DNA of 25,353 nt from a virus: positions 1 to 25,353 of IMG/VR virus record IMGVR_UViG_3300020477_000118, one strand, 5' to 3'. Of the stretch, positions 1,308 through 23,309 are shown piece by piece (position 1 is the first letter of the stretch; every line of letters starts with the position of its first letter). The notes below the pieces were generated by a model, which was not told the DNA's origin, did no database searches, and saw only the letters and a program-made list of their open reading frames with translations. A program made the translations under genes and the position numbers.

Positions 1308-2276
1308 CTACCAATTGGCCATGTGGTTGACTAGTCCCGCCTCTTTACCACGTTGTATTGCAGAGTCTACCACGTCCATGGGCAAGAACGCTTCCTCCCC
1401 CGTCGTCCACTCGTTGCGCCAGATGCGGCGATACTCGGACTCGCGCCCCTTCAACGACGGGTCTTTCTGCGCTTCTGCCATGAACTCAGGGGTGTGCCAG
1501 GGCATCCTCGCCTCATGGTCCCAGTAGCAAAAGTACTGGCCATCCTGGTAGCAAGGCAGGTCTTCCAAACCGGGCACCAGCGTACCATGCTTCCGCAGAG
1601 GATCGTAGGAATCCGGCTTTACTACACTCTCATAGATGTTCCACAGCAAATGACTCTCGCCATACCAGCCAGCGTAGGTAGTCACCAGCCGCACCGAATA
1701 CGGTAGGTTGGGTATCGGCTGCATCTCGACCCACAACCTCTCCGCGGCATCAGTCCTATAGGCCCACAGCTCATCAAACACCGTCAGCGCCGGCATACCA
1801 CCCGCCTCGCCAGCATAGTCTGAGGCGATAAAGCGCAGCCAGTGCGGGCCAGGGTTGCGCTGGCCATTGTCAGCGAAGTCGATCTGTTGACCCCGCTTGA
1901 CGAACTTATCCTTGCCCAGCACCTCCTCTAAGAGCTCGGGCGCCTGATGCTGCATCAGCAGGAAGTTCTCCTGCACCCGGTCGAACATACGCGTGCGTGA
2001 CTGCTCGATGTCGTTGGCTATAGAGTAACAGTTGCCGCCGAAGGTGCGGGCGAAGCCGTAGGTGATCATCGCCGCCAGCTCGGTCTTCGCAGACTTTTTC
2101 GGCATCGACAGGACGATATTTCGATACGGCAGCTCGCCATCCTCGTTAACGGTAAAGACGTGGTTGAGGATGCGACGATGATGGTCCACCAGCTCCACTA
2201 CCGTGCCGCTTTCCTTCAGGTAGTATTCGCTCTGTATACACCGCACCAGCGGACAATCGATGACAGGCTCGGTCAC
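1308..2276 (-). CDS. Terminase large subunit, ATPase domain only
   Basis: This 322-residue protein would power DNA packaging at the portal. A Walker A-type segment lies at residues 57-66 (SMPKKSAKTE) and Walker B at 163-169 (ALTVFDE), with the catalytic Glu after the Asp. A TTYAG coupling-type motif is at 199-203. Residues 280-305 carry the EWTTGEEAFLP text that in Terminase_1-type proteins lies just before the nuclease domain. The protein stops about 20 residues later, whereas a complete large terminase usually has 450-600 residues. No nuclease remnant follows: after the stop comes the palindrome, the hairpin and the fibre gene. The missing domain matches the gene at 22746-23309. The start is GTG in a GTGA overlap with the preceding gene, with GGGAGAG upstream; the next in-frame Met is at Walker A itself. 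The Walker A glycine before the Lys is Ala here. Confidence 0.87.
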   Translation of the reverse strand: MTEPVIDCPLVRCIQSEYYLKESGTVVELVDHHRRILNHVFTVNEDGELPYRNIVLSMPKKSAKTELAAMITYGFARTFGGNCYSIANDIEQSRTRMFDRVQENFLLMQHQAPELLEEVLGKDKFVKRGQQIDFADNGQRNPGPHWLRFIASDYAGEAGGMPALTVFDELWAYRTDAAERLWVEMQPIPNLPYSVRLVTTYAGWYGESHLLWNIYESVVKPDSYDPLRKHGTLVPGLEDLPCYQDGQYFCYWDHEARMPWHTPEFMAEAQKDPSLKGRESEYRRIWRNEWTTGEEAFLPMDVVDSAIQRGKEAGLVNHMANW

Positions 2277-4840
2277 TGTTGCCGCTCTCCCGTCCCAACC
2301 AGGCGCGAGGCCACGTCCGCCGGCCCTGCCATTGCCCAGTCAGGAAGCTCAGTTGCCATCGTGCCGCGTCTGAGGGCGGTCAGCGCATTCATCGGCAGGT
2401 TGCCCTCCCAACCCGGTCTAAGCTCGCCCTTCAACGGATCGGCCTCGGTTGGATCCACATGCATTTTGGCTAGCTTCTTCGAGCTGGCAAAGTGCATGAG
2501 AAAACGAATTATCTTGCCAGGATCCTCCGCAATCGTAACCGGCGACTGCACCTCCTGGCCGGCGCCCACCTGCTCATAACGCGGGTTCAGCCGCTGCACG
2601 CCCGGCTTGACAGTCAGCATCGTGTCACGCAGACGATACAGGGCTTCTTTAATTTCGGGATCCTGCCTCAACAGATCATCGAAATAGGCATCCTGAGTGT
2701 TCTGGCCCTTGCCACCGATCTTGTCCATCTGCGCGATCAACTTATCACTCTTAATTGCCCGCTTTCCGCCACCCACGTCCTCGGTTGCCTCGTATAGCAT
2801 TGCAGATAGACGATTCTGCGCCAGCTTCCGCATGAACTCATCGCCCATCTCGGCACGCACCTCGCGCAGGCGCGAGATATCCTTGGTCATAGCGCGGATC
2901 AGCTCATCGTCGCTCTGCACCCGCTCCACCAGGCGCCCCATGGTAGACTTCTGCAGGTTGCGATAGCGGGCCCACCTTGCATCGGCCAGGTCCCACAGGG
3001 TCTCGTACTCTTCAGGCAGCCCCTTGGGCTTCATCAGCAGCGGGTGCAGTACTTCGACCTCACTCTTGACGAAATCCTTGATGTCAAAAAACGCGTCTTG
3101 AGCCAAACGCCGGCCGTCTGTGGTGATTCCCGTCTTCGGAAAGATCGTGTCCGAAGCATAGCGCCATATGTCATCAATGGACATGGCATTGTCAGGCAGC
3201 TCAACCGGCAGAAAGTTGTCGGGGAAATCCATCTGCATGAGGAGCTGTTCCTGGTAGTCTGGACCAGGAATATCGATCGCCTCCTCGCTAGCCTCGCGGG
3301 TCACAGTCGGAAGGCGCCGCATCTCCGTAAACGGTATCTGGGCGCTCAAGGCCTGGTCTGCCTGGGTAGGCGTTAGCCCTTCGAATAGCGGTATCTGCTC
3401 CTCGTACCCAGGCTGCCGGAAACCTAGGGCCTCACCCGGCGTGCGCTCCTCTGGAAATACCCTACGAAGGCCTGGAAGGGGAAGCTGCGCCCCCATGCCC
3501 CGCTCCAGATCGATCGGAGCTACCTCGGGAAATGGCAGATTTCGCAGCTTTGGATCCGGCCCTGTGTTCTTCTCCTCCAACAGCTTGATGAGCGTCCGAA
3601 CCTTGTTCACCGCCGGGTCAGAGATATCATCAAACCCCGACTGCGAAATCAACCGTTGTAGCTTTTTCACCAGCGGCCGTGCGTCGGGCGTTGCCTTGCC
3701 CAGGCCAGTGGCGAAGATGTTATCGTATATCTGCGAGGCCGAGTCACGCTTATCGTTCAGGTGGGCCACCCACTCCCCGCGCACCGCCGCCCCGGCTTCG
3801 TTGGTATTGGGCACAATGCGGTCTGGTGCCATCTTCCGCACCAACCGCTGCCCCATGATACGGAAGCCCTTCTCAAAATCTTTCAGCAGGTCCTCCAATA
3901 GGGGAACGGCGGCAGTAGCCTGCGATGTCTTCATCGCCATCCACGACGAGAGCGGGCGGTCGGGGTTAAGGATTGAGGTGACATCGTGATACTTGAAGCC
4001 GTTGCGCTGCAGCTCCTGCTGCAGACCATGGTTGATATGCTCCCATTGATCCCACCGTGGCGCATCCAGGGGACGGTCAAGCGTAATATCTTTTTCCCCT
4101 TTCGGAATTTTCTTAGGCCCGAAACCCAACTTAAGGCCGCGAGACGTAAGCCAGCCGGCACCGCTGATGCCCCCCGTCAACGCCGCAGCAAAAGCGGCAT
4201 CCGCCGTCATCGGTCCAGCGATCTCGCCCGTCTCCGCATAACCCCGCGTGCCGCCATAGAGCGCACTCTCACCAACACCACTTAGCACCCGCTTGCTGCG
4301 CTCAAACGCCCCCTGCCGCGGACCAATAGAAGACGGGTTTCGAAACAAGCCTCCAATGCGAGATCGCGTAGCATCCAACCCTGCATCAAGCGCCTGTCCT
4401 GCTCGCTGCGCCAGCCGCGGCGCCAGGCCCATAAGGCGACTAGCGCCCGCTCGAATGCCCGCACCCGCGACCCCACCCCCAGCCATCTCTGCCGGCAGGT
4501 CACCCAGCGACGGCTCTACAGGGCGGTAGCCTCCTTCCCCTGTCAGTCTCCCAACCCCCTCAAGCCCACCCATTGTGAGGCTGTTGAGCAGTACCCGAGA
4601 CTGCCGGGAGATCTGGTTGTTAGTCCAGTCATCCAGCTGCCGCATTAGAGGGTTGTAGCCGGGATGACCGGGAGGCACGTCCCAGTAGTTGGCTTGATCG
4701 CGATACCGTCGCGACAGCTTCAGCTCGGCGTGCTCGTAGTTATTAATCGCCTTGCGCTCTTCAGGCGTTAAGGCATACGACCCTCCCGACTCTTCTCGAG
4801 CCGCTATGTTAGCTCTTGCTTGATCATAAATTCTGCCCAT
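2273..4840 (-). CDS. Large putative internal virion (ejection) protein, 855 aa
   Basis: I do not recognise a named family. The N-terminal 100 residues are charged and helical. Two Gly/Ala-rich, membrane-like stretches follow: residues about 112-150 (AEMAGGGVAGAGIRAGAS onwards) and about 205-235 (MTADAAFAAALTGGISGAGW). The rest, from about 250, is long, charged and largely helical, with a Pro-rich insert around 430-545. Large helical proteins with amphipathic Gly/Ala segments just downstream of the neck genes are typical of podovirus internal core proteins that leave the capsid with the DNA and build a channel through the envelope. That role is inferred from size, composition and place. No lysozyme or transglycosylase motif is visible. 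AGGTG precedes the ATG, and the end overlaps the terminase ATPase start by four bases. Confidence 0.75.
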   Translation of the reverse strand: MGRIYDQARANIAAREESGGSYALTPEERKAINNYEHAELKLSRRYRDQANYWDVPPGHPGYNPLMRQLDDWTNNQISRQSRVLLNSLTMGGLEGVGRLTGEGGYRPVEPSLGDLPAEMAGGGVAGAGIRAGASRLMGLAPRLAQRAGQALDAGLDATRSRIGGLFRNPSSIGPRQGAFERSKRVLSGVGESALYGGTRGYAETGEIAGPMTADAAFAAALTGGISGAGWLTSRGLKLGFGPKKIPKGEKDITLDRPLDAPRWDQWEHINHGLQQELQRNGFKYHDVTSILNPDRPLSSWMAMKTSQATAAVPLLEDLLKDFEKGFRIMGQRLVRKMAPDRIVPNTNEAGAAVRGEWVAHLNDKRDSASQIYDNIFATGLGKATPDARPLVKKLQRLISQSGFDDISDPAVNKVRTLIKLLEEKNTGPDPKLRNLPFPEVAPIDLERGMGAQLPLPGLRRVFPEERTPGEALGFRQPGYEEQIPLFEGLTPTQADQALSAQIPFTEMRRLPTVTREASEEAIDIPGPDYQEQLLMQMDFPDNFLPVELPDNAMSIDDIWRYASDTIFPKTGITTDGRRLAQDAFFDIKDFVKSEVEVLHPLLMKPKGLPEEYETLWDLADARWARYRNLQKSTMGRLVERVQSDDELIRAMTKDISRLREVRAEMGDEFMRKLAQNRLSAMLYEATEDVGGGKRAIKSDKLIAQMDKIGGKGQNTQDAYFDDLLRQDPEIKEALYRLRDTMLTVKPGVQRLNPRYEQVGAGQEVQSPVTIAEDPGKIIRFLMHFASSKKLAKMHVDPTEADPLKGELRPGWEGNLPMNALTALRRGTMATELPDWAMAGPADVASRLVGTGERQQ

Positions 4841-4848
4841 TATGACAC

Positions 4849-6582
4849 CTATTCAACTATCGGAAAGGGCGACAGAACACCGTGCATGTACACAGGATTG
4901 GGATGGGCATAATCGAACCATCTATTCCTAATATTGGTCGCCGCGGCGGTATTACCGATCTCCCTGCGACCGCTCGTTAATATCGTTGCCGCGGTATTGC
5001 CACCAACGGAAGAATCCCCATTCACGCCTTCGGCCTGGGGTTTTCCGCCGCCGAACTTTAATCTTTTGACTTCCTTGGCAACATCACAGCTCGACCCAGG
5101 CACAAACGGACCCTTACAGACGTTCTCAATGACCTGATTTAGTTGAGAGATGTCTAGATACTCGTAGGTCTCCTCCATCGACAGGAGCATACTCTGCACC
5201 GCCTCCTTATTTTCAGGCGTCATGCCCCCCTTCTTAATCAGAGCTTGCTCGTAGGCGGCCTCTCGCATGTCATTGGCGAACGTGATCATCCCTGCCGCCC
5301 GTGCTATCACAGCACTCGGCTCAAACTTCAGGGCACCGACCAGCAGAGCAAAACGCTCTTCTTCCGTATTAGTAATAGCCGCACCCGTCTGCCGGCGAGC
5401 AAAGGTTTCCAACAACAGCCCCAGCTCGACGACCACCGCGTCGATGGCAGGCGAATCGTATTCGCCCTTCAACACGAAACCGGCTTCCGTGACACGCCCC
5501 TCAAGGGTGCCAAACTTTTCCTTGTCCTCCGGCGAGAGCGCATCCACCAACTCCATCACACGCAGTGCCTTTTTCTGGACCGTCCGGTCATCGATCAGCT
5601 TATCCTCAGTGCCAGCACGGAATACGAGGTCGCCCAGGCGCGTGGTTTCAAACTCCTGTTGTATCACCGCCTCTTGTTTGTCAGTAAGTGTAATATTCTC
5701 AAGCGCCAGGTTACTCTTGAGATTGGTCATAAGCTGTTCCGGCGAAGTATACTTCGCCTTCTTCAGCTGTATCTCCTTGTACTTGTTAATCTTCTCCCCG
5801 TTTTTCGATGCCAGCACGTCGGGTATACGCTTATACTCCAGCTTGCCTGTCACCCGATTCCTGCGCCAAAACATCCCCGTACTACTATCGAACGTGTAGC
5901 CTTCCGCTCTCCATTGCTCCAGTTCCCATTTGGCATTCTCCAGCTTGCGCCTATGCTTTTGATTAAGAATGCGCTGTTCAGCCTCCTCTACCGCCCTCTC
6001 CTCCGCGTTCTCAGCCCATATAAACCTCTTCTCGTCACGCTCACGCTGTAGCTCTTCAGCGGCACGGTCGATTTCATTTCGCGCCAGGATACCTCTCAGG
6101 AGCGGATTTTTAACTTCAGGAAACAATCGCTCTGTTTCCTCAGTCTCAATCTCCTCCGTCGGCACCTCGATCGTAAAACCGGGATCAAAGTCAAGCTCAT
6201 CCTCCGGCACCTCGATCGTAAAACCGGGATCAAAGTCAAGCTCATCCTCCGGCACCTCGATTATAAAACCGGGATCAGTGTCAAACTCAGACCTTGGCGG
6301 AGGCATTCCTGGGGCCTCGACAGTGGGGATTTCAGGCGCTTGGGGAATTGCGCCCATGTCCTCGGCGGCAGTCCACGCCGCCGTAATCGCTGCAGGATCC
6401 CTTGAGGCCATAGCCATCTCCAGGGCACGCATCGCCTGACCGCGCTCAGTCTCCTGCTGTTGCATCATAAGCCGCTGCCGCGCCGCCATAGCCTGCGGCA
6501 GCTGGTTGGACGCCTCCGACAAGCCCCGCGTAACGTCAGTGCCGAAGCGACCTAGTGCTCTTAGTGCTCCACCTATTGGCAT
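4849..6582 (-). CDS. Putative internal virion protein with 15-residue repeats, 577 aa
   Basis: This is an unrecognised protein. Residues 1-80 are Gln/Ala/Met-rich and helical. Residues about 98-140 hold three near-identical acidic 15-residue repeats (FDPGFTIEVPEDELD). Residues 150-215 are a highly charged, Glu/Arg-rich stretch with coiled-coil character (for example ILNQKHRRKLENAKWELEQW). A long helical body follows to about 490, and the C-terminus is Gly/Asn/Ser-rich. The position between two other large helical proteins and the neck module suggests an ejected or core virion protein, but there is no catalytic motif to test this. The start overlaps nothing: the upstream gene's TAG is three bases away, and the ribosome binding site is weak, so translation is probably coupled to the upstream gene. 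Confidence 0.75.
   Translation of the reverse strand: MPIGGALRALGRFGTDVTRGLSEASNQLPQAMAARQRLMMQQQETERGQAMRALEMAMASRDPAAITAAWTAAEDMGAIPQAPEIPTVEAPGMPPPRSEFDTDPGFIIEVPEDELDFDPGFTIEVPEDELDFDPGFTIEVPTEEIETEETERLFPEVKNPLLRGILARNEIDRAAEELQRERDEKRFIWAENAEERAVEEAEQRILNQKHRRKLENAKWELEQWRAEGYTFDSSTGMFWRRNRVTGKLEYKRIPDVLASKNGEKINKYKEIQLKKAKYTSPEQLMTNLKSNLALENITLTDKQEAVIQQEFETTRLGDLVFRAGTEDKLIDDRTVQKKALRVMELVDALSPEDKEKFGTLEGRVTEAGFVLKGEYDSPAIDAVVVELGLLLETFARRQTGAAITNTEEERFALLVGALKFEPSAVIARAAGMITFANDMREAAYEQALIKKGGMTPENKEAVQSMLLSMEETYEYLDISQLNQVIENVCKGPFVPGSSCDVAKEVKRLKFGGGKPQAEGVNGDSSVGGNTAATILTSGRREIGNTAAATNIRNRWFDYAHPNPVYMHGVLSPFPIVE
6161..6289. repeat. Three 45-bp tandem repeats inside the 577-aa gene
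   Basis: Units start with GGCACCTCGAT at 6161, 6206 and 6251. The first two are almost identical, and the third diverges after about 35 bases. They encode the acidic DPGF(T/I)IEVPEDELD repeat. The near-identity at DNA level points to recent duplication. Confidence 0.9.
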
Positions 6583-6585
6583 GGC

Positions 6586-7365
6586 CTAATTCCCTGGCAT
6601 CCAACTCGGTTTGAAGTTCGGGTTTTGAACCAACGACGTGAGGATATTACCGCCTAAATTCCCGAGGCTTTGGCCAAACCCCGGCTGGGGATCATTGAAC
6701 CTGAAGTCGGGCATCGACGGCTGGATCGTGTTCTGACCGACCGCATTGAGCATCAACGCCAGCGCCTGCATCTGCCGATTCTTCTGGGCCTGATCGAGCT
6801 GCTGGAACCTGTCGTAGAAGTTGAAGTAGTTGGACAGATCCTGCTGCTCACGCTGCAGGCCCTGAGTCCAGTCTGCCCCCTGCATCGTGTTGTAGGTAGA
6901 GGCAAAGGCAGGGGCAACCGAGGTCATGGCACCGACCAGGCGATTTGACATAGCGTCCTGCTGCTGCTGCTGCAGGTCCGCTCGAGCCTGATCACCGACA
7001 GTAGACGCTCCCATGCCACGCAGCTGTAGCGCCTGCGCCAGGTCCTGACGCTGGCGCTCGTTCTGCCGCTGCATCTCCCGAGCCATAGGCTGCAGGAAAC
7101 CGGTCATGGTGTCCGGCTGCGGCGTTCCCCCCATAGCGCCCACCATAGCCCCCACCAGACCCTGCCTTAAGCCCTGGTCGTCCATAGCCGGGCCATAATC
7201 AGGCTGGTTGAACTCGAATACGTCGCCGCCGGTATTCAGGGGCGCGTCCTGAACGACAGGACCTGCCGTGGTATCCGGTCCCTGCGGAATTGTCGGATAT
7301 AGGACGTCATCCTGCGGAACTGTCGGATATAGGACGTTATCCTGCACCCCATTGTAATCTGCCAT
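6586..7365 (-). CDS. Gln-rich putative virion protein, 259 aa
   Basis: No family is recognised. The chosen start is the ATG at 7365 (MADYNGVQ), because GGGAG lies eight bases upstream; a longer reading from a TTG at 7392 has no ribosome binding site. Residues 11-28 contain a tandem pair, VLYPTVPQDD then VLYPTIPQ. The middle (about 75-200) is Gln/Arg/Met-rich and helical, with QQQQQ at about 134-138. The C-terminus is Gly/Asn/Phe/Pro-rich and ends in WMPGN. It lies between two large repeat-bearing genes and is probably co-packaged with them. A 75-base gap upstream (7366-7440) shows no clear hairpin with a U tract and no strong promoter. Confidence 0.72.
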   Translation of the reverse strand: MADYNGVQDNVLYPTVPQDDVLYPTIPQGPDTTAGPVVQDAPLNTGGDVFEFNQPDYGPAMDDQGLRQGLVGAMVGAMGGTPQPDTMTGFLQPMAREMQRQNERQRQDLAQALQLRGMGASTVGDQARADLQQQQQDAMSNRLVGAMTSVAPAFASTYNTMQGADWTQGLQREQQDLSNYFNFYDRFQQLDQAQKNRQMQALALMLNAVGQNTIQPSMPDFRFNDPQPGFGQSLGNLGGNILTSLVQNPNFKPSWMPGN

Positions 7366-7440: not shown

Positions 7441-10029
7441 TTAATCCTTAGAGTAGTCAGGACCACCGTAGACTTGATCGTCTTCCGGCATATCAGGCGG
7501 AACATGACCAGCTGGAACAGCTGTCTTGCCGAACATCTCGGTATTGGCAAGTTCGGGCGGCATTCGATCTTCCGGCCAGAACGCTGGTGGTGGCCTGTAC
7601 TCATACCCAGGAACAAACATGCCGAGGCGATCCTCGATAAAGGCTTGCAGCGTCGCCTCTTCAGCATCATCAAGCTCAAATCCAGTCTCTCCAAAACCCT
7701 GGGCCTTATACCGCTGATCCATATGCTTACGCCACATCAACTCAGTGGCCGCATCATCCAACTCATGTTCCCAAAGGGGATCTGGATAAATATCGCCACC
7801 ACGGCCACGACTAATTGCACGCGCCATATTCAAACGGTTATACCGTTCCCAATCAAAGTCCGGATCAAGTAACTGTTGCACGGGGAAGGCCCCATACATC
7901 GCCGCCTGGGCCTTGTGCAACGGATTCTCCTCGAGCCAGCTTTCGAGTACTTGAGCGTCCATGTCGGTGAGGGGCTCACCCTGGCCCAACATGCCGTGAA
8001 GCCTCTGCTGCCGGTGCCAATCCAACGCCTGCGCGACAGTCGGATTCGCTTGCGCCACATAGTTACGGATCATGTCCCGCCGAAGATCGCGGAAGGTGTA
8101 ACGGCCACCACTGCCAGTGCCGCCACCTGCCCCTCCACCCCCTCCAGAACCACCACCCGCGTGCGCTGTGCCCGCAGTCATGCCCGGTGCTAGAGCGCCA
8201 CCAGCTATACCACCGCCGCCACCGCCTATACTGGGCAGAAAGGCCAGCTGTTCGGGGGTCAAGTTTTCGGGACGCATTTCGCTGAAATAGGGCTGATCAG
8301 CAAGGCCTGAGAAGTCACCGGCAGCCAACGCCGCGAACAGGTCCGGTGCCGCCATCGGCATAGTTGAAGCATACTCATCAGCCAAAGCTGCCCCCTGTGC
8401 CGCCAGATCCACTTCTCCCCCTGCCACAGTAGGCGGCGGCATAGTTGAAGCATACTCATCCGCTAATGCCGCACCCTGACCAGCTAGGTCTGCTTCCGCT
8501 ATAGACGGTGCCGTGCCTCTATCTGCTACATTCCTCATCATAAGGAGAGCATCTATGGCCGCCGCCTGTTCATTTTCGGGCAGAGAAGCTACAAATTCCG
8601 CTTGCTCCGATGTCATCCATTCTGGCACAGACACGCCCACAGGGGCGACCACCGGGTCCGCCATAGCAAAAGCCGGATGAGCGAAGTCCGGAGTACCGGA
8701 GACCGCATCGCCTACCGGGTCCCCCATAGCAAAAGCCGGATGAGCGAAGTCAGGAGTACCGAAGACCGTATCGTCTACCGGGTCCGCCACAGCAAAGGCT
8801 GGATGAGCGAAGCCAGGAGTGCCGGCCACCGCATCGTCTACCAACTGGTCTCCCAAAGAAGGAGTAGGCATTACGGATATATTGCCGCCGACTTGAACTA
8901 CATCCTGGTCAGGAATAACCATGTCCAACGGATCCGTCACCACATCAACAAATGGCACCTCGCCCGTACTCAGGTCCGCTGTTAAAACCGGGTTGAAGGC
9001 ATATTCCGGCGCGTCATAGACAGGAGCCTGATAGTCAGGCGCATCATAAACAGGAGCCTGGTAGTCCGGCGCATCGTAAACAGGGGCCTGGTAGTCCGGC
9101 GCGTCATACACAGGAGCCTGGTAGTCCGGCGCATTATAGACAGGAGCCTGGGGCGCTTCAAAAACCGGCGCCTGGTACGAGGGTGCCTGGTACGTAGGAG
9201 CTGCAAATGCGCCCGACGCGATATTCAGATCTGGCGCCGCAAATGCGCCCGACGCAATATTCAGATCTGGAGCCGCATACTGCGGACCAGCAAACGCGCC
9301 TTCCGCATACTGCGGACCAGCGAACGCCCCCTCGCCAAAGGTCATGCTCGGCGCTGTAATTGCCCCCTCGGCAATATTCAGGTTAGGTGCAGCTATCGCT
9401 CCTTCAGCGATATTCGCTGCGCCACCTTGCACCGCCCCCTCGCCAAACGTAACCAGGGGGTTTTGGAACATATTGCCGGCAGCACCGAGGACATCCACCG
9501 GATTCGCCATGTTACCGGCAATAGCCTGGGTCAGCGGACTGAAGATCGTGCTCAACCCCTGATAGGGGTCAACCGTCATCGCATCGATGACCGGCTGCCA
9601 GGAGGGATCGAAGGCGGGCATCTTCGGCGTGAAGGACCCAAACGTTTCGGGATCGTACGCAGTCGCAGTATCATCCAGAGGACTGAAGCTGAAAGCAGTG
9701 CCCCCACTAGGCGCGAAAGACCGATCGCGCAACGTCGGCTCGAATATCCCCGGCGCCCTCAGTTGTGCCCGTGGCTCGGTGAGGATATGGTCGCCATAGC
9801 CAAAGACATTCTCCATGGAGCGACCGAGATACGGCATTTCTACTTTGTTGTAGCGGTTGAGCATCTGCCGACGCATGAGGTCGGCTATGTCCGCCTGAGC
9901 CGAGTACAACCGCTCCTGCATAGGCGAGTACCCACCGCCGCCGCCGCCGCCACCGCCGCCGAACATATAACCGAGCAAGGTAGGGGCTAGCGTTTTTGCT
10001 ACGTTACCCAGAGTCAGCCATTCAGCCAT
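7441..10029 (-). CDS. Giant repeat-rich virion protein, 862 aa
   Basis: Family unknown. The protein starts with a hydrophobic helix (LGNVAKTLAPTLLGYMF) followed by ten consecutive Gly at about 24-33. Residues about 205-280 have FGEGAFAGPQY and APDLNIASGAFA repeats. Residues 294-343 are five decapeptides of the APVYDAPDYQ type, with degenerate copies before them. Residues about 398-460 are three 21-residue repeats containing GTPDFAHPAFA. ALADEYASTMP occurs twice at about 510-560, and a Gly-rich linker lies at about 599-640. The last 200 residues are ordinary, charged and aromatic, and probably form a folded domain. The alternation of Ala-Pro-Tyr repeats and Gly linkers suggests an extended or elastic polypeptide. 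An internal core protein or an appendage are both possible. The ribosome binding site is weak; the gene begins four bases after the beta-propeller gene. Confidence 0.78.
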   Translation of the reverse strand: MAEWLTLGNVAKTLAPTLLGYMFGGGGGGGGGGYSPMQERLYSAQADIADLMRRQMLNRYNKVEMPYLGRSMENVFGYGDHILTEPRAQLRAPGIFEPTLRDRSFAPSGGTAFSFSPLDDTATAYDPETFGSFTPKMPAFDPSWQPVIDAMTVDPYQGLSTIFSPLTQAIAGNMANPVDVLGAAGNMFQNPLVTFGEGAVQGGAANIAEGAIAAPNLNIAEGAITAPSMTFGEGAFAGPQYAEGAFAGPQYAAPDLNIASGAFAAPDLNIASGAFAAPTYQAPSYQAPVFEAPQAPVYNAPDYQAPVYDAPDYQAPVYDAPDYQAPVYDAPDYQAPVYDAPEYAFNPVLTADLSTGEVPFVDVVTDPLDMVIPDQDVVQVGGNISVMPTPSLGDQLVDDAVAGTPGFAHPAFAVADPVDDTVFGTPDFAHPAFAMGDPVGDAVSGTPDFAHPAFAMADPVVAPVGVSVPEWMTSEQAEFVASLPENEQAAAIDALLMMRNVADRGTAPSIAEADLAGQGAALADEYASTMPPPTVAGGEVDLAAQGAALADEYASTMPMAAPDLFAALAAGDFSGLADQPYFSEMRPENLTPEQLAFLPSIGGGGGGIAGGALAPGMTAGTAHAGGGSGGGGGAGGGTGSGGRYTFRDLRRDMIRNYVAQANPTVAQALDWHRQQRLHGMLGQGEPLTDMDAQVLESWLEENPLHKAQAAMYGAFPVQQLLDPDFDWERYNRLNMARAISRGRGGDIYPDPLWEHELDDAATELMWRKHMDQRYKAQGFGETGFELDDAEEATLQAFIEDRLGMFVPGYEYRPPPAFWPEDRMPPELANTEMFGKTAVPAGHVPPDMPEDDQVYGGPDYSKD
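8355..8500. repeat. Two copies of an 81-bp repeat
   Basis: TAGTTGAAGCATACTCATC occurs at 8361 and again at 8442, giving an 81-bp (27-residue) period. The copies encode ALADEYASTMP preceded by (L/A)A(A/G)QGAA. Confidence 0.8.
8651..8839. repeat. Three 63-bp tandem repeats
   Basis: Units begin with ACCGGGTC at 8651, 8714 and 8777, a strict 63-bp period. Each encodes 21 residues including TPDFAHPAFA and a DPV motif. The high nucleotide identity suggests recent expansion. Confidence 0.85.
9001..9195. repeat. Five 30-bp tandem repeats plus degenerate copies
   Basis: From 9001 to 9150 an exact 30-bp period is visible; each unit has TAGTCCGGCGC or a close form and ends near CAGGAGCCTG. The units encode APVYDAPDYQ on the minus strand. 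Less regular copies continue to about 9195. The repeats are in frame and in a gene, so this is protein repetition, not a CRISPR array. Confidence 0.9.
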
Positions 10030-14235: not shown

Positions 14236-15141
14236 TTATACCCCTGGCGAGCCGAAGACGCCGCGAGGATCGCCCCAGCCGGACGACTGAGCGTACATGC
14301 CGCTGATCTTGTAATCCTTCGTATCGAAGTCATACTCGTAATCGGTCCAGAAATTTTCCCGATCATAGAGCAGCATGTAATGGTCGGATTTCTCCGCAAG
14401 AAGGAACCACGCGTCGGTGTCAGTGAGGTAGTTCCACACCGTGACATCGAGCAGGCCATTCAGCGGATTGGCCGCGTTGCTGTCGTCCTCGGGCTGCTGG
14501 CTCGAGTTCGTATAGCGATAGGCCTCAAACCGCAGCTCCTTGGGCACCAGCAGGTGCTTGGGCTCGATGACCACCCGCTTGCCGCCACCATCGCGGAAGT
14601 CAGAGAAGTCAATCAGCGCCTGTTCCAGCGAGGTCTGCGACAGATCTGCCGCCGACGACAGCTCGTTGGCGTAGGTCGATCCATCTTCCCGCACATGCGC
14701 GGTGGAGAACAGCTCCAACCCATCGGGGCCGGTGTAGCTGGAATCGAATCCGTTGTTGAAGTGATTCGCCAGCGTCGTTTCCTCCGTAGCCCGAGCCGAG
14801 CGGCCCAGCTCCGCGCCCCATTTCTCCATAGAGGCGTACAGATCGTCACGCAGCATTTCGCGGGTGATACGGATACCGTAGCCCGAGTCAGTGTGCGTAA
14901 AGGTCTGCCGGAAACCTTCGTTCCCCGACGCGTAGTCCAGCGGCGACCCTTCGGTCTTCGTCGGCATGACGCCGATGCCGCCAGCGGTAAGGGTGTCTTC
15001 CTGGTACTGGGACGAATTGCGGACGTTGAAGACAGAGCGCCCAACGCCCTCTCGTTCCGTAAAGTCGTGAAAGATCACCATGTCGATGTCTCTCAAGACG
15101 GTGTGGAACGGCCACGTCGATGTCGTGTGTATACTGGCCAT
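14236..15141 (-). CDS. Major capsid protein (HK97-fold, Mu gpT-like)
   Basis: The 301-residue protein has the hallmarks of a phage head subunit. There is an N-terminal arm, then the E-loop region about 35-85 (VGRSVFNVRNSSQYQEDTL onward). Next comes a spine helix about 90-125 (GYGIRITREMLRDDLY, EKWGAELGRSARATEETTL), and NNGFDSS followed by DGLELFSTAH, which recalls the Mu-like gpT head subunit group. The P-domain and C-terminal strands end in FGSPGV. AGGAGT precedes the ATG. It lies next to the decoration-like gene and behind the scaffold-like gene, as expected for a head operon. The fold is inferred from pattern, not from a structural comparison. Confidence 0.85.
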   Translation of the reverse strand: MASIHTTSTWPFHTVLRDIDMVIFHDFTEREGVGRSVFNVRNSSQYQEDTLTAGGIGVMPTKTEGSPLDYASGNEGFRQTFTHTDSGYGIRITREMLRDDLYASMEKWGAELGRSARATEETTLANHFNNGFDSSYTGPDGLELFSTAHVREDGSTYANELSSAADLSQTSLEQALIDFSDFRDGGGKRVVIEPKHLLVPKELRFEAYRYTNSSQQPEDDSNAANPLNGLLDVTVWNYLTDTDAWFLLAEKSDHYMLLYDRENFWTDYEYDFDTKDYKISGMYAQSSGWGDPRGVFGSPGV

Positions 15142-17387: not shown

Positions 17388-17404
17388 TTTTTCTCCAGAA
17401 CTAG

Positions 17405-17480: not shown

Positions 17481-17491
17481 GCTGCGTTTAT

Positions 17492-17507
17492 GCGGCCGTC
17501 AGGCCGC
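17492..17507 (-). other. Short GC hairpin after the 43-aa gene
   Basis: GCGGCC and GGCCGC pair perfectly around GTCA. It lies eight bases after the stop codon of the 43-residue gene. There is no U tract, so it is more likely a transcript-stabilising stem or part of the larger fold with 17405-17480 than a terminator. Confidence 0.4.
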
Positions 17508-17514
17508 TCGGTCT

Positions 17515-17646
17515 CTAGTACTGCCTTGCTGGATTCTTCCGCACCGGCGACTTGCCCTTGCCGGACGTGGCTTTCTTGCCGCCCGTGTTACCTTTCGAGC
17601 TGGCCTTACGCGGCTTGTTAGAACCGTACTTCTTGTTGCCTTCCAT
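17515..17646 (-). CDS. Tiny Lys/Gly-rich basic protein, 43 aa
   Basis: ATG at 17646, TAG at 17515-17517. AGGGGAG lies seven bases upstream and begins in the previous gene's TAA, a strong signal for translation. The sequence, MEGNKKYGSNKPRKASSKG followed by further Gly-Lys-Ser repeats and ending KNPARQY, has about one Lys or Arg in every three residues and no acidic residue after position 2. It is probably disordered. A role in binding or neutralising DNA inside the head, or in assembly, is a guess from charge and position. Confidence 0.7.
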   Translation of the reverse strand: MEGNKKYGSNKPRKASSKGNTGGKKATSGKGKSPVRKNPARQY

Positions 17647-17658
17647 GATATGCTCCCC

Positions 17659-17907
17659 TTATGCGAGCTGGTTAATAGACCTGTCGAGACGACCGCGAAT
17701 GTCACCTCGCACACGATCACTGACCGTTAAGCCGCACGCATTGTACGCCTCGACAATCAGCGTTTCCATATCCCCGGTTTCCATGTCATCAACCATGAAG
17801 GTCAACGGCACGGCATCGGCCAGGGAGATAAAGAGATACTTGCCCTGGTTGGCGACGTTGCGCGTCACCGTTTTAGCTACGTCAGCTGGCAGGTTGCGCC
17901 TGGGCAT
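17659..17907 (-). CDS. Hypothetical protein, 82 aa
   Basis: No family is recognised. The basic N-terminus (MPRRNLPADVAKTVTRNVAN) is followed by a strand-like part (YLFISLADAVPLTFMVDD), an acidic turn and a helical C-terminus (VRGDIRGRLDRSINQLA). The first 26 bases overlap the end of the preceding 98-residue gene in another frame, and a GGCGAG stretch upstream could serve as ribosome binding site. It lies between portal and scaffold genes. Confidence 0.65.
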   Translation of the reverse strand: MPRRNLPADVAKTVTRNVANQGKYLFISLADAVPLTFMVDDMETGDMETLIVEAYNACGLTVSDRVRGDIRGRLDRSINQLA

Positions 17908-18178
17908 ACTCGCCAGTCACGTAAGTCGGATCCTCTCCCCCGTCATCGGGAGATAAGGCCGACTTTCTTTCCTCTTGCAACCGGCGCATGGCCAGCTCAA
18001 TGCCATCGACAACCCCAGCAGCCCTGTTGATGCTGGTCACGTCGGACCCGCGCATGGCCGTACGCATCTTCGTCGTCTCAGCGTCGATCATCTGCTCGAG
18101 CATCTGCAGGGTGGCGCCGAAGTTAGGATTGGTGTAGAAATCCTTTTGGCTCCGCGATGTTGAAGTAAAATCAGCCAT
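17882..18178 (-). CDS. Hypothetical helical protein, 98 aa
   Basis: Not recognised. It starts MADFTSTSRSQKDFYTNPNF. Residues 20-75 are helical with regular hydrophobic spacing (LQMLEQMIDAETTKMRTAM, IELAMRRLQEERKSAL). The C-terminus is acidic and Gly-rich. Its ATG follows directly on the TAG of the 11-codon mini-ORF, without a clear Shine-Dalgarno sequence, so its translation probably depends on that mini-ORF. Placed right after the portal gene, it may be a minor head protein. Confidence 0.65.
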   Translation of the reverse strand: MADFTSTSRSQKDFYTNPNFGATLQMLEQMIDAETTKMRTAMRGSDVTSINRAAGVVDGIELAMRRLQEERKSALSPDDGGEDPTYVTGEYAQAQPAS

Positions 18179-18214
18179 CTACCGTCCGCGCCTGGTCGGT
18201 TTATACAATGGCAT
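18179..18214 (-). CDS. 11-residue mini-ORF coupling portal to the next gene
   Basis: After the portal TAA the sequence reads GGAGTCCAGAAATG, a good ribosome binding site at normal spacing, and opens MPLYKPTRRGR followed by TAG. The next gene's ATG starts at the very next base. The peptide has four Arg/Lys in eleven residues. It could be a translated leader that feeds ribosomes into the 98-residue gene, or a real micro-peptide. The evidence is spacing only. Confidence 0.4.
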   Translation of the reverse strand: MPLYKPTRRGR

Positions 18215-18225
18215 TTCTGGACTCC

Positions 18226-20532
18226 TTATAGCGGCTGTCCGATTGTCGGCGGTGCCATGCCGTTGCCATTGGGCGACTGGTTCACATCGCCCATCGCGCC
18301 CATGTTCCCTACCCCCTGCAGCTGCGGCTCTATGCGCTCCTGACCCAGCGCCGGTCCCTGCTGCCCCTGTTGCCCCTGTGGGCCTTGTGCCTGCTGCTGG
18401 GCCGCCATCTGGGCCTGCTGCTGCTGCATCGCCTGCTTCTGCATGATGGCCGCCTGGTGCTCGGCATAGTGGGCCATGTGGCCGGTTTGATTAGGACGGC
18501 CCATAGAGACATATGCCGGGTCATTGAGGTGTTCCATGACCTTCTGCATATGCTGCTGGTCGTTGTCGTTGGGATGTACCGGCGCCGGCTGGTTGATGCC
18601 GTGCACCTGCTGGTCCATCTCGCCATTCTCTTCTTCCTGGGATTTTGGAACCCCAACGGAGATGGCTTCTTTCGGACCAATGAACTGAGCAGGATTGGGA
18701 AAGCCTGCCGCGTGCAGGTAGTAGTTGAGGATCTCCCACTGCTTGCCCATGTCCTGGGCGACAATGGCATTCTGCAGCAGCGGCATCAGCGCCTGACCCT
18801 GCTGCTGTCGGATCATTGACGAGAACATCCCCTCGTTGGCGCCGAGCTTGAAGTCATACTGGCCCCGCATCCACAACTCGTCGCGGGTCAGCTGCTGTGT
18901 CAGCGGTCCCTCACGGCCCTGGAGACGTAAAACGCGCTCTTCGGGCCCGTACTGCATTTCCATGTTGTAGAGGGTGTGGCAGAGGAACGAGAAGGCGTCC
19001 GCATCGGAGGCGACAATCTCGGAGGTTCGCGCCAGCGCCTCTTGCTGGGTACCGACAAAGCCGGTGGCATGACGCGCCGCCGCACCGGTCTGAGGAGAGA
19101 TGCCGAGGAACAGGTCGGTGACCCCCATCACCCGTTCGATGAGGGTATAGAGGAGCTGTTCCTCCTGATGATAAAACGAGGTGACGTTCTGCAGTTGCGG
19201 AAAGCGCACCGCGTTAACATCATCGACCGGCACGCCCTTTAAGGGGCGCAATTTTATCTTTTCAGGATTGAAGATTGAAGAGGCCTGATAGAAGAAGAAG
19301 GGCATGTTGGTCGCGAAGCCGACATCGATACGCATATTGTGTATCGTGTCCAGTTCGGCGGAGAGATGCTTGACAATCTCCATGACGCCCATCGACTGGA
19401 GCCGGGTGCCGACACGCTGGTAGTGCAGCTCGAGCAGGGGGCGGCGGTTCTGCCAGTAGACATCACTGAGCCGGAAGGCGCCCAACAGCTTCAGCGGGCG
19501 CAGACTAACGTAGAAGAGACATTCTTCCTCGACTTTGCCGTTGGGGCCATCGACCTCCCACGGCATGAACCACATGACCGTCTCAAACTCAGGATTGGCC
19601 CGCTGCTTTGGAGTGCGGCGCCCCTCCAGGGACCGGGTGCGGCCCTCATAGCGATCCTGTGTCCGCGCTCGGGTGTTCTCACCGCCATGGGCATCGGAGC
19701 GATCCTGGGACGGGGCTGCGTCCAGCCACCAGTCGCGATCGTTCATATCCTTGTCGGTCTCGATGTAGCCGTAGGCCGACTCTTTGAGCTTCCACATCAG
19801 CGACAGCGGCTGCCACTGGCGGATGCCGACATAGTCGGTGCCGCCGCGGTTGGCCTCCGACACCGGCTGCAGGTTCATGCCCTCCGGCGGGTGGATCAGG
19901 TCATCCCACTCAACCGGGTGCAAGGTGAAACCATCGTAGCGCGTGCGCTCAATGGTCTCATGCTCCTGCGCCACCGTCTCAACGACGATCTCGTCGTCGG
20001 TGATCAGTGGACGCCCATCGGGCAGAAGCTGGATAGTGGGATCGGAAGAGGCGGTGACGCGACGGAAGGAGAAGGTGTCTTTGGCGGGGAGGATAAGTCC
20101 TACACCAAGACCATGGATGCAGCGCATCCGCGAAACGATGTTCCATTGGGCGCGGGCATTCATGCGCCGCAGGTGCCAGCTTACCAGGGCAGTTGAATGC
20201 CGGAAGATCTCCTCGTCGTCGTCCTCGTAGGCTTCGCCGGCGACTAAGGGCGTCTGTCCCCAGATGGCCGAGGTAAGCCGCGTGCCGATAGAATCCACCA
20301 GCCAGAAGGGCATCTGCACATGCAGGTTGGCGCTGCCCTCCCACGGCCCCGAGCGATGGGTGTCGAGGGAGCCGCGAAACATCTGGTCGTAGAGATCGTG
20401 CTGTTCAGAGAAGGCCGTGCGCTCCTGCACCTGGGACTGGTACAGGTCGTGGATCGTCTGTGCTAGCTGCTCTTTGTCCCCTTTGGAGAGGTTGAGCAGT
20501 TCCGGCTCGGCAAAGTCCGGCCGCCTATCCAT
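18226..20532 (-). CDS. Portal protein, 768 aa
   Basis: The dodecameric portal would sit at one capsid vertex, pass DNA and bind the terminase and adaptor. The N-terminal wing has SKGDKEQLAQTIHDLYQSQ and GPWEGSANLHVQMPFWLVD, a usual portal opening. Around 385-425 lies LSAELDTIHNMRIDVGFATN, then a stem/crown region (QLLYTLIERVMGVTDLFLG) and TGFVGTQQEALARTSEIV. These fit portal proteins of podovirus-like environmental phages. The C-terminal 110 residues are Gln/Met/Gly-rich and low in complexity (MQQQQAQMAAQQQAQGPQG), an unusual tail perhaps protruding into the capsid. The ATG at 20532 has no good ribosome binding site; a candidate promoter lies upstream at 20600-20629. Confidence 0.85.
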   Translation of the reverse strand: MDRRPDFAEPELLNLSKGDKEQLAQTIHDLYQSQVQERTAFSEQHDLYDQMFRGSLDTHRSGPWEGSANLHVQMPFWLVDSIGTRLTSAIWGQTPLVAGEAYEDDDEEIFRHSTALVSWHLRRMNARAQWNIVSRMRCIHGLGVGLILPAKDTFSFRRVTASSDPTIQLLPDGRPLITDDEIVVETVAQEHETIERTRYDGFTLHPVEWDDLIHPPEGMNLQPVSEANRGGTDYVGIRQWQPLSLMWKLKESAYGYIETDKDMNDRDWWLDAAPSQDRSDAHGGENTRARTQDRYEGRTRSLEGRRTPKQRANPEFETVMWFMPWEVDGPNGKVEEECLFYVSLRPLKLLGAFRLSDVYWQNRRPLLELHYQRVGTRLQSMGVMEIVKHLSAELDTIHNMRIDVGFATNMPFFFYQASSIFNPEKIKLRPLKGVPVDDVNAVRFPQLQNVTSFYHQEEQLLYTLIERVMGVTDLFLGISPQTGAAARHATGFVGTQQEALARTSEIVASDADAFSFLCHTLYNMEMQYGPEERVLRLQGREGPLTQQLTRDELWMRGQYDFKLGANEGMFSSMIRQQQGQALMPLLQNAIVAQDMGKQWEILNYYLHAAGFPNPAQFIGPKEAISVGVPKSQEEENGEMDQQVHGINQPAPVHPNDNDQQHMQKVMEHLNDPAYVSMGRPNQTGHMAHYAEHQAAIMQKQAMQQQQAQMAAQQQAQGPQGQQGQQGPALGQERIEPQLQGVGNMGAMGDVNQSPNGNGMAPPTIGQPL

Positions 20533-20599
20533 AGGACACGCCCGCCAATGGGCCTGCCCCCAATGGACATAATCATAGCTATAAAACTTCTCGATTAAG

Positions 20600-20629
20600 A
20601 ATATCGGACATTGCTTTACACCGTGTCAA
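20600..20629 (-). promoter_or_regulatory. Candidate sigma-70-type promoter before the portal gene
   Basis: On the minus strand a perfect TTGACA (-35, 20624-20629) is followed after 18 bases by GATATT (-10, 20600-20605; four of six consensus bases). It overlaps the end of the GroES-like gene and would start a transcript of the head operon within the 83-base gap before the portal. The -10 box is weak. Confidence 0.35.
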
Positions 20630-20936
20630 GTGCATCTTTGTTAATCGCGTGTAACTGATCTCTGGAGATCAAGGTCAGCCATTCACCATCGACACAGATC
20701 TCCGTACCGACGAACTGTTCAAGCACCACCTCGTCGCCGACTTCTACGTCTACGTGCGGCTGCTTTCTTCGCTTTTTCCCGATAGCGAGCACGGTCCCGT
20801 TCTCCGCTGGCCTTACTGCGTTGTCGGGAATCAACAGCCCCTGTCTGGTGAAGATGTCCGGCGCATGTCTCCGCACCAGAATCCGCCCCCCCACCGGGGT
20901 CACCGTCGTCGTCTGCACCTTGTGCGACTGTGACAT
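20616..20936 (-). CDS. GroES-like co-chaperonin, 106 aa
   Basis: The protein would cap a chaperonin ring during folding of the capsid protein, as gp31 of T4 does with host GroEL. Residues about 15-25 (VGGRILVRRHAP) are the first Cpn10 strand. IFTRQGLLIPDNA matches the mobile-loop region with a hydrophobic GLLIP tip. GTVLAIGKKRRKQ is the dome/roof region, and VEVGDEVVLEQFVGTEI plus GEWLTLISRDQLHAI are the last conserved strands. The start is the ATG at 20936 with GAGGAGA upstream; the longer open frame to 21170 is not coding in style. The preceding gene's frame overlaps two thirds of it. No GroEL is in the window. Confidence 0.85.
   Translation of the reverse strand: MSQSHKVQTTTVTPVGGRILVRRHAPDIFTRQGLLIPDNAVRPAENGTVLAIGKKRRKQPHVDVEVGDEVVLEQFVGTEICVDGEWLTLISRDQLHAINKDALDTV
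20640..20655. promoter_or_regulatory. Quasi-palindrome, copy 3, inside the GroES-like gene
   Basis: The plus strand reads GTTAATCGCGTGTAAC, the minus strand GTTACACGCGATTAAC, identical to the consensus of the four copies. It lies in the last codons of the GroES-like gene, just upstream of the candidate TTGACA box. Being coding sequence it may be coincidental, but the position ahead of the head operon fits an operator. Confidence 0.4.
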
Positions 20937-21183
20937 TAATCTCCTCACGGTTTTTATTGAGATAGGCGACCAGGCCATCCCAGACGCCGGCCCTGTGGAG
21001 CATCTGCACGGCAAACTCCCGCGCCTGGGCATCGGTGCCCCACAGCGCCTGCTCCAACAAGCTGTAGCGAAAGCCCTCCTTCCACTGCGGGGAGGTAGGC
21101 TCCTTCGACTCTTCCCACTGCGCCAATGCCGCATCAGCCCTGGACCAGTCCAAAGCCTCATACAGATCATTAAGGCGTTTCAA
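20719..21183 (-). CDS. Hypothetical protein overlapping the GroES-like gene
   Basis: The frame opens with TTG (MKRLNDLYEALDW), overlapping the previous stop as TTGA. The first 85 residues look like a real helical protein (FRYSLLEQALWGTDAQAREF, VQMLHRAGVWDGLVAYLNKN). The remaining 70 residues lie over the GroES-like gene in another frame and are Gly/Asp-rich, then very Arg/Lys-rich, like out-of-frame translation. Either a real 218-base overlap exists or an indel hides the true end: in one alternative frame a stop lies right at the GroES start. The place between the nuclease-domain cluster and the portal would suit a small terminase subunit, but no motif supports that. Confidence 0.55.
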   Translation of the reverse strand: MKRLNDLYEALDWSRADAALAQWEESKEPTSPQWKEGFRYSLLEQALWGTDAQAREFAVQMLHRAGVWDGLVAYLNKNREEINVTVAQGADDDGDPGGGADSGAETCAGHLHQTGAVDSRQRSKASGERDRARYREKAKKAAARRRRSRRRGGA

Positions 21184-21875
21184 TAGCCCGTCACCGCGTG
21201 CCCCTGGTGCTCATGCTCCTCCTCCACCGGCAGCACGATACGACGGTCCAACCCCCTTAAGACCAGGGCCAGGGCATAGCAAGGCGCTTCGTCAGCACCC
21301 CGTATCCCTGCCTGGGTCCTCTGATTATCAAACTCGACGGGAAAGTGGAGCTGCTGCACCGGCTGCCCGTCCTTGCCCACCATCGGCATCTGAGTACGAG
21401 GATCCCACACCTGGGTAGCGAGCTTGCGCTCGATGAGGTGGTGGGCCGCCTCCTCCTCGAGCTGCTGAGTGGTAACGCGGGCGACAAGGTCTACCGACGA
21501 AAAGGAGGGATAGAGCGAGCGCAGGGCCGTAGGCGAGCCCTCGGGGTAGTGGGTTAACCCTTCCTGATGGCGCACCAGATCAACGTGCTCGGTGTCACCT
21601 ATATATATAGAATAGGCGCGGTAGCGATCTTTGAACCCTACCAGCTCGTTTAAGAAGTGGTGGATGTCGGTGTCCTCATACTCAGCCAGGACCACATAGA
21701 GGCGCTCTTCTCCGTACACCCGCTGGCCGACGACGACGAGAAAAGGGTCCGGCTCCAGCCACACCCCGATAGCAGTACAGGCAAAGTCGAGTTCGAGCAG
21801 CTGGTCGATCTCCCCCGGTGGTTGCCACATCAGCGTCAGCGTGTCCGCAATCTCCATGGCGCCGACGTATTTCAC
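21180..21875 (-). CDS. Unassigned protein, possible degenerate RNase H-like fold, 231 aa
   Basis: No family is recognised with confidence. The chosen start is GTG at 21875, in a GTGA overlap with the previous gene and with AAGGTG upstream; an ATG at 21857 is an alternative. Residues 30-75 read as three strands (CTAIGVWLEPDPFLVVVGQ, RLYVVLAEYEDTD), then a helix (HHFLNELVGFKDRY) and a strand with Asp (AYSIYIGDTEHVD). The C-terminal helix has GADEAPCYALALVLRGL. This order resembles the terminase-nuclease RNase H-like fold, but the first catalytic Asp is not evident. It is near the true nuclease gene and may be a paralogue or an accessory packaging protein. That is a hypothesis. Confidence 0.6.
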   Translation of the reverse strand: MKYVGAMEIADTLTLMWQPPGEIDQLLELDFACTAIGVWLEPDPFLVVVGQRVYGEERLYVVLAEYEDTDIHHFLNELVGFKDRYRAYSIYIGDTEHVDLVRHQEGLTHYPEGSPTALRSLYPSFSSVDLVARVTTQQLEEEAAHHLIERKLATQVWDPRTQMPMVGKDGQPVQQLHFPVEFDNQRTQAGIRGADEAPCYALALVLRGLDRRIVLPVEEEHEHQGHAVTGY

Positions 21876-22084
21876 CAGGACACCTTCACATCGACAGCCT
21901 CCAGCTCACGGCGCATACGAGCCCAGTCAGTAGCCTTGCTGCGACGGTGGGGCGAACCAGGGTTTATATACGAGTTACGTTTAGGGCCGGGGACCGCCTT
22001 GGGCGGCACCGCCCGCACCATCCACCAGGGGCGACGGCGACGCATGTCATCATCGCACTCCCACTGTCCATAGAAAGGATTCAT
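21872..22084 (-). CDS. Hypothetical basic protein, 70 aa
   Basis: It starts at an ATGA overlap with the upstream gene, with GGAGG seven bases before. The sequence is Arg/Pro/Trp-rich: MNPFYGQWECDDDMRRRRPW, then VPPKAVPGPKRNSYINPGS, and it ends with a short helix (ARMRRELEAVDVKVSW). Probably largely extended and nucleic-acid-binding by charge. No known family is apparent. Confidence 0.6.
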   Translation of the reverse strand: MNPFYGQWECDDDMRRRRPWWMVRAVPPKAVPGPKRNSYINPGSPHRRSKATDWARMRRELEAVDVKVSW

Positions 22085-22749
22085 CCTGCAACCTCCGGCG
22101 GGTCCACCGGACCCTGCTCCTTGAGCAGGTCGTTCTGCACTGCGTAGGCACCCAGGTTGGCCATCATAGTCCTTTCCACCTCGGGGCTAACGTCGATCGA
22201 CTGGACATGCTGACAGGTGCAGTCCCTGACGACGTGGACACCACCGACCTTACGACTAAACGCCATGTCCACGTTGTCGTGGGGGTAGTCAGAGGAACCA
22301 TAATGGAACCAGGGAGGCTCCATCGACTCGAGCACCTCCCGCTCGATGACCACGCACCCCAACCCGGCGCCATCGACCTTGAACACCTTATGCTCCGGCC
22401 ATTGATTGACCGGCAGCGTGTCCCAGTAGGCGTTATTCATCTTATAGAGCGAAGGCAGGGCGCCCGGCTGCCCCAGGTGGATACCGTAGACGCCGCAGAG
22501 GACGGGAAAGTCATGCTTGACAATGGCATTCGAGCGCGGCGGAGTGATCGCTGAATCAATCAACCACAACCGGTCCCCATCCCCCTGGAGGAAGTCAGAG
22601 ACCATATAATTACGCGCCGCCACCACCCCCTCTGCCGAAAAAAACGGTTCGATGTCCCAGAGGTGGTACTTTTTCGCAGCCCACATCATCCAGCGCGTGA
22701 GCAGGGGGTCGATGGTTCCTGAATGAAGAATGCGAACGACAACCTTCAT
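22081..22749 (-). CDS. GT-A-like glycosyltransferase family protein, 222 aa
   Basis: The text follows the small GT-A-fold proteins often found near phage terminase genes. ARNYMVSDFLQGDGDRLWLI precedes the place of the DxD motif. VLCGVYGIH and GLGCVVIEREVLESM follow, and DNVDMAFSRKVGG recalls the usual late acidic motif. The metal-binding DxD, normally D-S-D-M-x-P-P, reads D-S-A-I-T-P-P here, so the second Asp is missing. The protein might modify DNA, virion or host surface sugars, or have lost catalysis. It overlaps the nuclease gene's stop as ATGA and is followed by another ATGA overlap, so it is translated with the packaging cluster. Substrate and activity cannot be told. Confidence 0.68.
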   Translation of the reverse strand: MKVVVRILHSGTIDPLLTRWMMWAAKKYHLWDIEPFFSAEGVVAARNYMVSDFLQGDGDRLWLIDSAITPPRSNAIVKHDFPVLCGVYGIHLGQPGALPSLYKMNNAYWDTLPVNQWPEHKVFKVDGAGLGCVVIEREVLESMEPPWFHYGSSDYPHDNVDMAFSRKVGGVHVVRDCTCQHVQSIDVSPEVERTMMANLGAYAVQNDLLKEQGPVDPPEVAG

Positions 22750-23309
22750 GGGAGCGCCTCTATGGACCGACCATGCATCGACGGCAGGTAAGAGGGGTGG
22801 CGGTTGTAGTTCTCGTCTCCAGTTGCCGCCATCAAGGCCATGGCGGTGGCTACCACCCCGTCCACCGGCCGCGACTGCGAGGCCTTGACAATGCGCCAGC
22901 CGCGCTCGGTCTGCTTGGCGTTGCAGTGAGAAAAGTGGGCCCGCAGCTCCTGGTCATCGACCAGGGCCAGGGTGTCCTCGACCATGTGCGAGTGGAGCGT
23001 GTTGGAGGCCAGGATCATCTCAGTGCCCTGGTTGACCTCGTTGAGCTTCGAACCGAAGCCCTCCTCCACCAGTCTTTGCTTGGTAGTCGCCATCATGTAG
23101 GGATCGTAATTAATCATGGCCACCTGCTGCGTCTTGAGGAGGCGGAGCAGGCAGGGCTCCACCTGGGTGACCATGTTGACCGGGGGCCTGTAGATGCGAC
23201 AGCCCCACAACCGGAAGTACTGCTCTTCGTAATCGTGGTAGACGGCGACGATGGCCGAGGTATCCTTCTTAATACCTATATCCACGCCGACGAACAGAAT
23301 CGGGTCCAT
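22746..23309 (-). CDS. Terminase large subunit, nuclease domain only
   Basis: The 187-residue protein is the C-terminal RNase H-like nuclease of a large terminase as a free-standing gene; it would cut concatemeric DNA at packaging. The first strand with catalytic Asp10 is VGVDIGIKKDTSA. The second acidic site, Asp69, lies in INYDPYMMATTKQRL. SHMVEDTLALVDDQELRAHF is the helical stretch before the last site, and Asp150 sits in SRPVDGVVATAMAL. All three acidic residues are present, so it looks active. There is no Walker motif. The protein begins six residues before the first nuclease strand, exactly where the ATPase protein at 1308-2276 leaves off. The ATG at 23309 lacks a Shine-Dalgarno sequence and follows a hairpin nine bases upstream; the stop overlaps the next start. 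Confidence 0.85.
   Translation of the reverse strand: MDPILFVGVDIGIKKDTSAIVAVYHDYEEQYFRLWGCRIYRPPVNMVTQVEPCLLRLLKTQQVAMINYDPYMMATTKQRLVEEGFGSKLNEVNQGTEMILASNTLHSHMVEDTLALVDDQELRAHFSHCNAKQTERGWRIVKASQSRPVDGVVATAMALMAATGDENYNRHPSYLPSMHGRSIEALP

Follow-up and report, generated by a model that had tools for sequence, protein, structure and literature searches.

Can the large terminase subunit (TerL) of a tailed phage be encoded by two independent genes? This enzyme pumps DNA into the virus head and cuts it, and in the well-studied tailed phages its motor and cutter are one chain. The question is raised by the IMG/VR record IMGVR_UViG_3300020477_000118, which was analyzed over its entire length (25,353 bases, referred to as the window throughout this paper) and which, being linear, is probably a genome fragment. 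The original prediction, made from the letters of the DNA alone, placed a TerL ATPase at 1308-2276 and a TerL nuclease at 22746-23309, together amounting to 509 amino acids (aa). Both are minus-strand open reading frames (ORFs) at these positions, and their products give this sum. The analysis confirmed that the large terminase is split into two separate genes, and that the split is neither a misassembly nor a sign of decay. Searches of the open-access literature turned up no earlier description of a TerL made from two independent genes, only intron, intein and unrelated cases.

The Two Terminase Proteins

The 322-aa protein is a complete ATPase domain of TerL, and the 187-aa protein a complete RNase H-like nuclease domain of the same enzyme. 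Profile searches, which had been proposed as a check, assigned both to PHROG 9 (terminase large subunit): the ATPase matched profile positions 201-335 (E 2e-12) and the nuclease positions 483-671 (E 5e-15), so that successive stretches of one profile are covered by the two proteins. The nuclease also matched the Pfam family TerL_nuclease (PF20441) above the cut-off. The Pfam and PDB sequence profiles gave no match for the ATPase, which was recognized through PHROG and structure.

The AlphaFold model of the ATPase, built with its relatives, reached a predicted local distance difference test (pLDDT) score of 86. Its best match among solved structures was the HK97 TerL (6z6d; VIA Z 23.2 over 243 residues); the first 21 VIA matches were all terminases (Z 15.0-23.2), and the next kind of protein followed at Z 13.1. 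The TerL ASCE ATPase fold with its lid is supported by both VIA and PHROG 9. The predicted catalytic motifs, namely Walker A (K64-T65), Walker B with its glutamate (D168-E169) and the coupling motif (T200-Y-A-G203), showed no variation across six split ATPases. Beyond the coupling motif lie the lid, a C-terminal helix (300-312) and a conserved tail, GLVNHM. The protein ends 23 residues past EEAFLP (294-299), close to the 20 or so first estimated. The complete Walker A of the window (residues 60-65) reads KKSAKT and that of its relatives KKSGKT or KKEGKT; the P-loop glycine is therefore replaced by alanine in the window.

The nuclease model, also built with relatives, had a pLDDT of 88, and its best solved match was residues 293-483 of the HK97 TerL (VIA Z 18.0 over 159 residues). 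Its 37 best structural matches were all terminases (Z 11.3-18.0), and RuvC, Cas9 and MutS appeared at Z 10.3 or lower, which removes the concern that the protein belongs to another RNase H-like family. The RNase H-like fold has the three catalytic aspartates and an auxiliary hairpin (strands 129-133 and 138-142), followed by a conserved C-terminal tail. The aspartates named in the prediction (D10, D69 and D150) show no variation across 34 nucleases of both split and fused forms. The HK97 TerL has the catalytic residues D302, D388 and D471 and the active-site lysine K463 (PMC9410871). Residue 1 of the nuclease aligns to HK97 residue 293, whereby D10 falls on D302, and D69 and D150 are taken to match D388 and D471. 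The invariant K142 stands eight residues ahead of D150, and K463 is placed likewise before the last aspartate of HK97. The HK97 TerL is thus the best solved match of both halves, with corresponding catalytic aspartates and lysine, but it is one polypeptide with a short linker (PMC9410871), whereas two proteins from separate genes are found here.

The Split in Related Contigs

Relatives were gathered through the capsid protein (47 loci) and through profile alignments of each half; scans of viral contigs with either half as a single protein gave no matches. The same split, which the prediction had suggested looking for, was found in at least 13 IMG/VR contigs from about ten IMG datasets (the window, G003, G010, G016, G026, G031, G032, G035, G036 and G040-G043; the G003 nuclease is truncated by the contig end), and several shorter contigs hold one half and part of the other. 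As the two genes are separate ORFs in 13 of the 13 contigs that carry both, the system is filed as a split variant and not as an ordinary TerL. Nuclease identity to the window falls to 36% among the split relatives.

Fused relatives were found as well. Both domains lie in one ORF in six loci (L098, L099, L101-L104), and in L146-L170 the nuclease is mostly at the C-terminal end of TerL-sized ORFs. The linker of the fused forms extends from EAFIP..WD.A as far as the first strand of the nuclease. In the split forms, the ATPase stops about 23 residues past EAFLP and the nuclease, in most cases with its own start codon, begins a few residues before its first strand, which places the break in the linker with no domain lost. 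The split ATPases stop at a homologous site after a conserved tail; this short tail, with a GLxN-like motif, ends all of them but the most divergent and is absent from the fused enzymes. A C-terminal tail, HP...H.RS, occurs in the split nucleases, and none was seen in the fused relatives compared here.

In a maximum-likelihood tree, 30 split nucleases stand on one side of a branch (support 100/99) and 27 fused ones on the other; 17 split ATPases are likewise grouped (70/70). The distance matrices of the two proteins correlate (r = 0.93, p = 1e-4, n = 13 related contigs, which are not independent samples), and dN/dS (the ratio of nonsynonymous to synonymous substitution rates) was 0.02-0.15 for both genes in the pairs where it was computable, indicating strong purifying selection. 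The split is clade-wide and appears to have a single origin. A tblastn search with both window halves against 50,697 phage records gave no match, and more distant split members had weak matches to ordinary annotated TerLs only; hence no cultured or annotated member was found.

A second, complete terminase elsewhere in the genome would have offered another explanation. In eight long contigs, searches with PHROG 9, PHROG 2, PF03237 and PF04466 detected no other or fused TerL: PHROG 9 found the ATPase and the nuclease alone in contigs holding both, PHROG 2 matched only the same ATPase in two contigs, and PF03237 and PF04466 gave no match, with control genomes positive. One of the eight, G032 (46,239 bases), ends in an exact terminal repeat of 123 bases, which usually marks a complete genome. 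In another long contig (G010, 45,352 bases) the break falls between the capsid gene and its neighbour, so that this contig should also be nearly complete. PHROGs 2699, 4914 and 7331 are short TerL-labelled families and may include other fragments.

Distance and Position of the Two Genes

The gap between the ATPase and nuclease genes ranges from 0.8 kb to about 22 kb. In far-type members (the window, G003, G010, G016, G026, G032, G035), the ATPase gene comes after the last of the large virion genes, in agreement with the predicted place at the downstream end of the structural genes; where the contig permits a count (G010, G016, G032, G035), 16-22 kb of other genes lie from the ATPase end to the nuclease start. 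As in the window, the start of the ATPase gene is overlapped or adjoined by a long ORF in several other contigs of the far type. In near-type members (G036, G040-G043 and others), the ATPase gene is 0.8-2.5 kb upstream of the nuclease gene, with ordinary genes between them: a C5 cytosine methylase in some members, and 131-aa and 153-aa genes. The methylase gene (3963-5090 in L091) comes immediately after that of the ATPase in L091, L092 and L093 and is absent in L089, L090 and L108. A 350-aa protein with a cysteine-rich CIRNCPWC motif, possibly a radical-SAM enzyme, is encoded between the two genes at L108:1258-2310 and L161:1282-2349.

The near or far state changes at least twice on the nuclease tree; G031 was counted among the near members by assuming a circular contig, and the count is the same without it. 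This independent movement of the two genes argues that their products meet as proteins. A terL gene beside the portal gene is usual, though not strictly defining. This adjacency was not seen here: the nuclease lies a few genes upstream of the portal, and the far-type ATPase is not near it. In annotated capsid relatives, a single TerL adjoins the portal (MW202601, vir526) or lies a short way from it (HTVC023P), and the nuclease therefore probably marks the ancestral place of terL.

Probable Origin and Assembly of the Two-Protein Terminase

Both domains are complete with their catalytic residues kept, the two genes are co-inherited under purifying selection, and the searches revealed no fused copy. 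On these grounds, we consider it probable that an ancestral TerL underwent fission and that its halves now form a stable packaging motor of two proteins, which assemble with no peptide bond between them. Fission would have occurred in an ancestor, after which the two genes would have drifted apart, leaving ordinary genes between them in some members and the ATPase gene at the end of the virion operon in others. We infer that the halves rejoin on the portal, where they would assemble in trans into the usual ring motor; the ATPase C-terminal tail (GLxN), the nuclease tail or both may replace the lost linker, and the nuclease would make the initiation and termination cuts. In HK97 a strand of the linker is packed against the hairpin of the nuclease (PMC9410871), and in the D6E TerL the nuclease has a C-terminal arm that reaches the ATPase site (PMC5727402).

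Several points weigh against fission into such a motor. The monophyly of the split ATPases is moderately supported, no small terminase subunit (TerS) was identified, and no cultured member was found. When T4 gp17 was split at its linker (Kanamaru 2004, as cited in PMC3012670), it kept ATPase and nuclease activity and lost translocation completely. The break lies in the same inter-domain linker and each half is a complete domain in both cases, but the T4 split was artificial and abolished translocation, whereas the present one is natural and conserved. Therefore, either the lineage has acquired a joint that is not covalent, or its nuclease cuts as a free enzyme.

As a free cutter, the nuclease would have no structural place in the ring; the ATPase alone would translocate, and the nuclease would be recruited only for initiation and for headful or cos cuts. 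Consistent with this are the large and variable distance between the genes, the models in which each half is predicted to fold alone as a complete domain, and the finding that nuclease-dead T4 gp17 still packages linear DNA (PMC3012670). However, the nuclease domain of HK97 and T4 belongs to the motor ring itself and is in contact with DNA (PMC10359639; PMC3012670), and the conserved nuclease fold, hairpin and tail, together with the divergence of the two proteins in step, make a free cutter rather unlikely. A packaging motor with a detachable nuclease is a tentative possibility: the ATPase ring might translocate with no nuclease covalently attached, the cutter might be loaded or removed or might differ from the ring in copy number, and cutting and pumping might be regulated as separate proteins.

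Could the two ORFs be exons that are joined later by RNA (trans-)splicing, or the extein halves of a split intein? TerL coding sequences in pieces or with interruptions are known from Jug phages (PMC12363816), cyanophage Mic1 (PMC7156551) and N4-like Vibrio phages (PMC3670811), and two fused relatives (L148:172-2880 and L104:1021-3756) carry large LAGLIDADG/homing-endonuclease insertions inside the ATPase domain, which are probably inteins and lie away from the split site. Those interrupted terL genes are rejoined by RNA or protein splicing, whereas no splicing element was found here, the genes are independent, and the break is always in the linker. Rfam gave no intron family in or near the two genes, and neither protein has an intein-sized extension. 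The homologous ATPase stop after a tail that fused forms lack, the start codons of most nucleases and the ordinary genes between the halves in near-type members also make joining by splicing very improbable; intron, intein and frameshift were each considered as the cause of the split, and none explains it. That the window, a 25-kb linear fragment, holds an assembly artefact or a decayed terminase, with the real TerL in the missing part of the genome, is scarcely credible given the recurrence of the split across many datasets, deep divergence and several gene distances, the strong purifying selection, and the lack of another TerL in the eight long contigs, including the terminally redundant one.

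Among known two-piece enzymes, the split minimal PolIII alpha and RNA polymerase subunits of jumbo phages (PMC7824862) are likewise encoded by separate genes and expected to be reconstituted in trans, but they are different enzymes; the two-domain TerL was described in the same paper as universal in jumbo phages. P2 gpP/gpM and human cytomegalovirus pUL56/pUL89 resemble the present pair in being named as separate ATPase and nuclease (endonuclease) terminase subunits. The gpP and pUL89 proteins, however, each retain both TerL domains, and their partner is not a bare TerL half.

Other Genes of the Window

Nearly all likely genes of the window are on the minus strand (Table 1). In the order of transcription, they encode a RecA-dependent-nuclease-like protein, a small helix-turn-helix protein, the 117-aa protein, the terminase nuclease, a glycosyltransferase-like protein, a 231-aa protein, a GroES-like protein and the portal, then several head proteins, the capsid protein, tail and virion proteins, the 855-aa protein, the ATPase and a fibre-like protein truncated by the contig end.

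Table 1. Positions of the terminase genes and other features in the window.
Feature	Position	Strand	Basis or remark
TerL ATPase half, 322 aa	1308-2276	-	PHROG 9, AlphaFold, VIA
855-aa gene	2273-4840	-	Immediately upstream of ATPase gene, 4-bp overlap (2273-2276)
Major capsid protein	14236-15141	-	Query for fetching relatives
Portal protein	18226-20532	-	PHROG 332/1216, weak PF16510, tblastn to annotated portals
GroES/Cpn10-like protein	20616-21170		Between nuclease and portal
Glycosyltransferase-like protein, 222 aa	22081-22749	-	Weak match; 4-bp overlap with nuclease gene
TerL nuclease half, 187 aa	22746-23309	-	PF20441, PHROG 9, AlphaFold, VIA
117-aa protein	23416-23769	-	Function unassigned; conserved upstream neighbour of nuclease
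Ref-like RecA-dependent nuclease	24354-24788		PF16786; about 1 kb upstream of terminase nuclease

The 117-aa gene adjoins the nuclease gene in both near-type and far-type members, and its product could be a packaging partner. A cpn10-like gene is near the terminase or the portal in several relatives too and is annotated in HTVC023P, vir526 and MW202601. Among the ORFs selected from the relatives examined, none was homologous to the Ref-like nuclease. An 862-aa virion-type protein (7441-10029) contains tandem YQAPVYDAPD-like and LNIASGAFAAP-like peptide repeats.

Significance

TerL, the hallmark enzyme of tailed phages, is described as having two domains, and packaging models treat the coupling of ATPase and nuclease through the linker as essential. 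The split bears on an open question, since translocation was abolished by the linker split of T4 gp17, as that work is cited in PMC3012670. A lineage whose halves have stayed separate across deep divergence provides a natural test of the need for a covalent link, and it offers motor and cutter subunits that can be expressed separately. Phage classification and completeness checks based on TerL can miss genomes of this kind.
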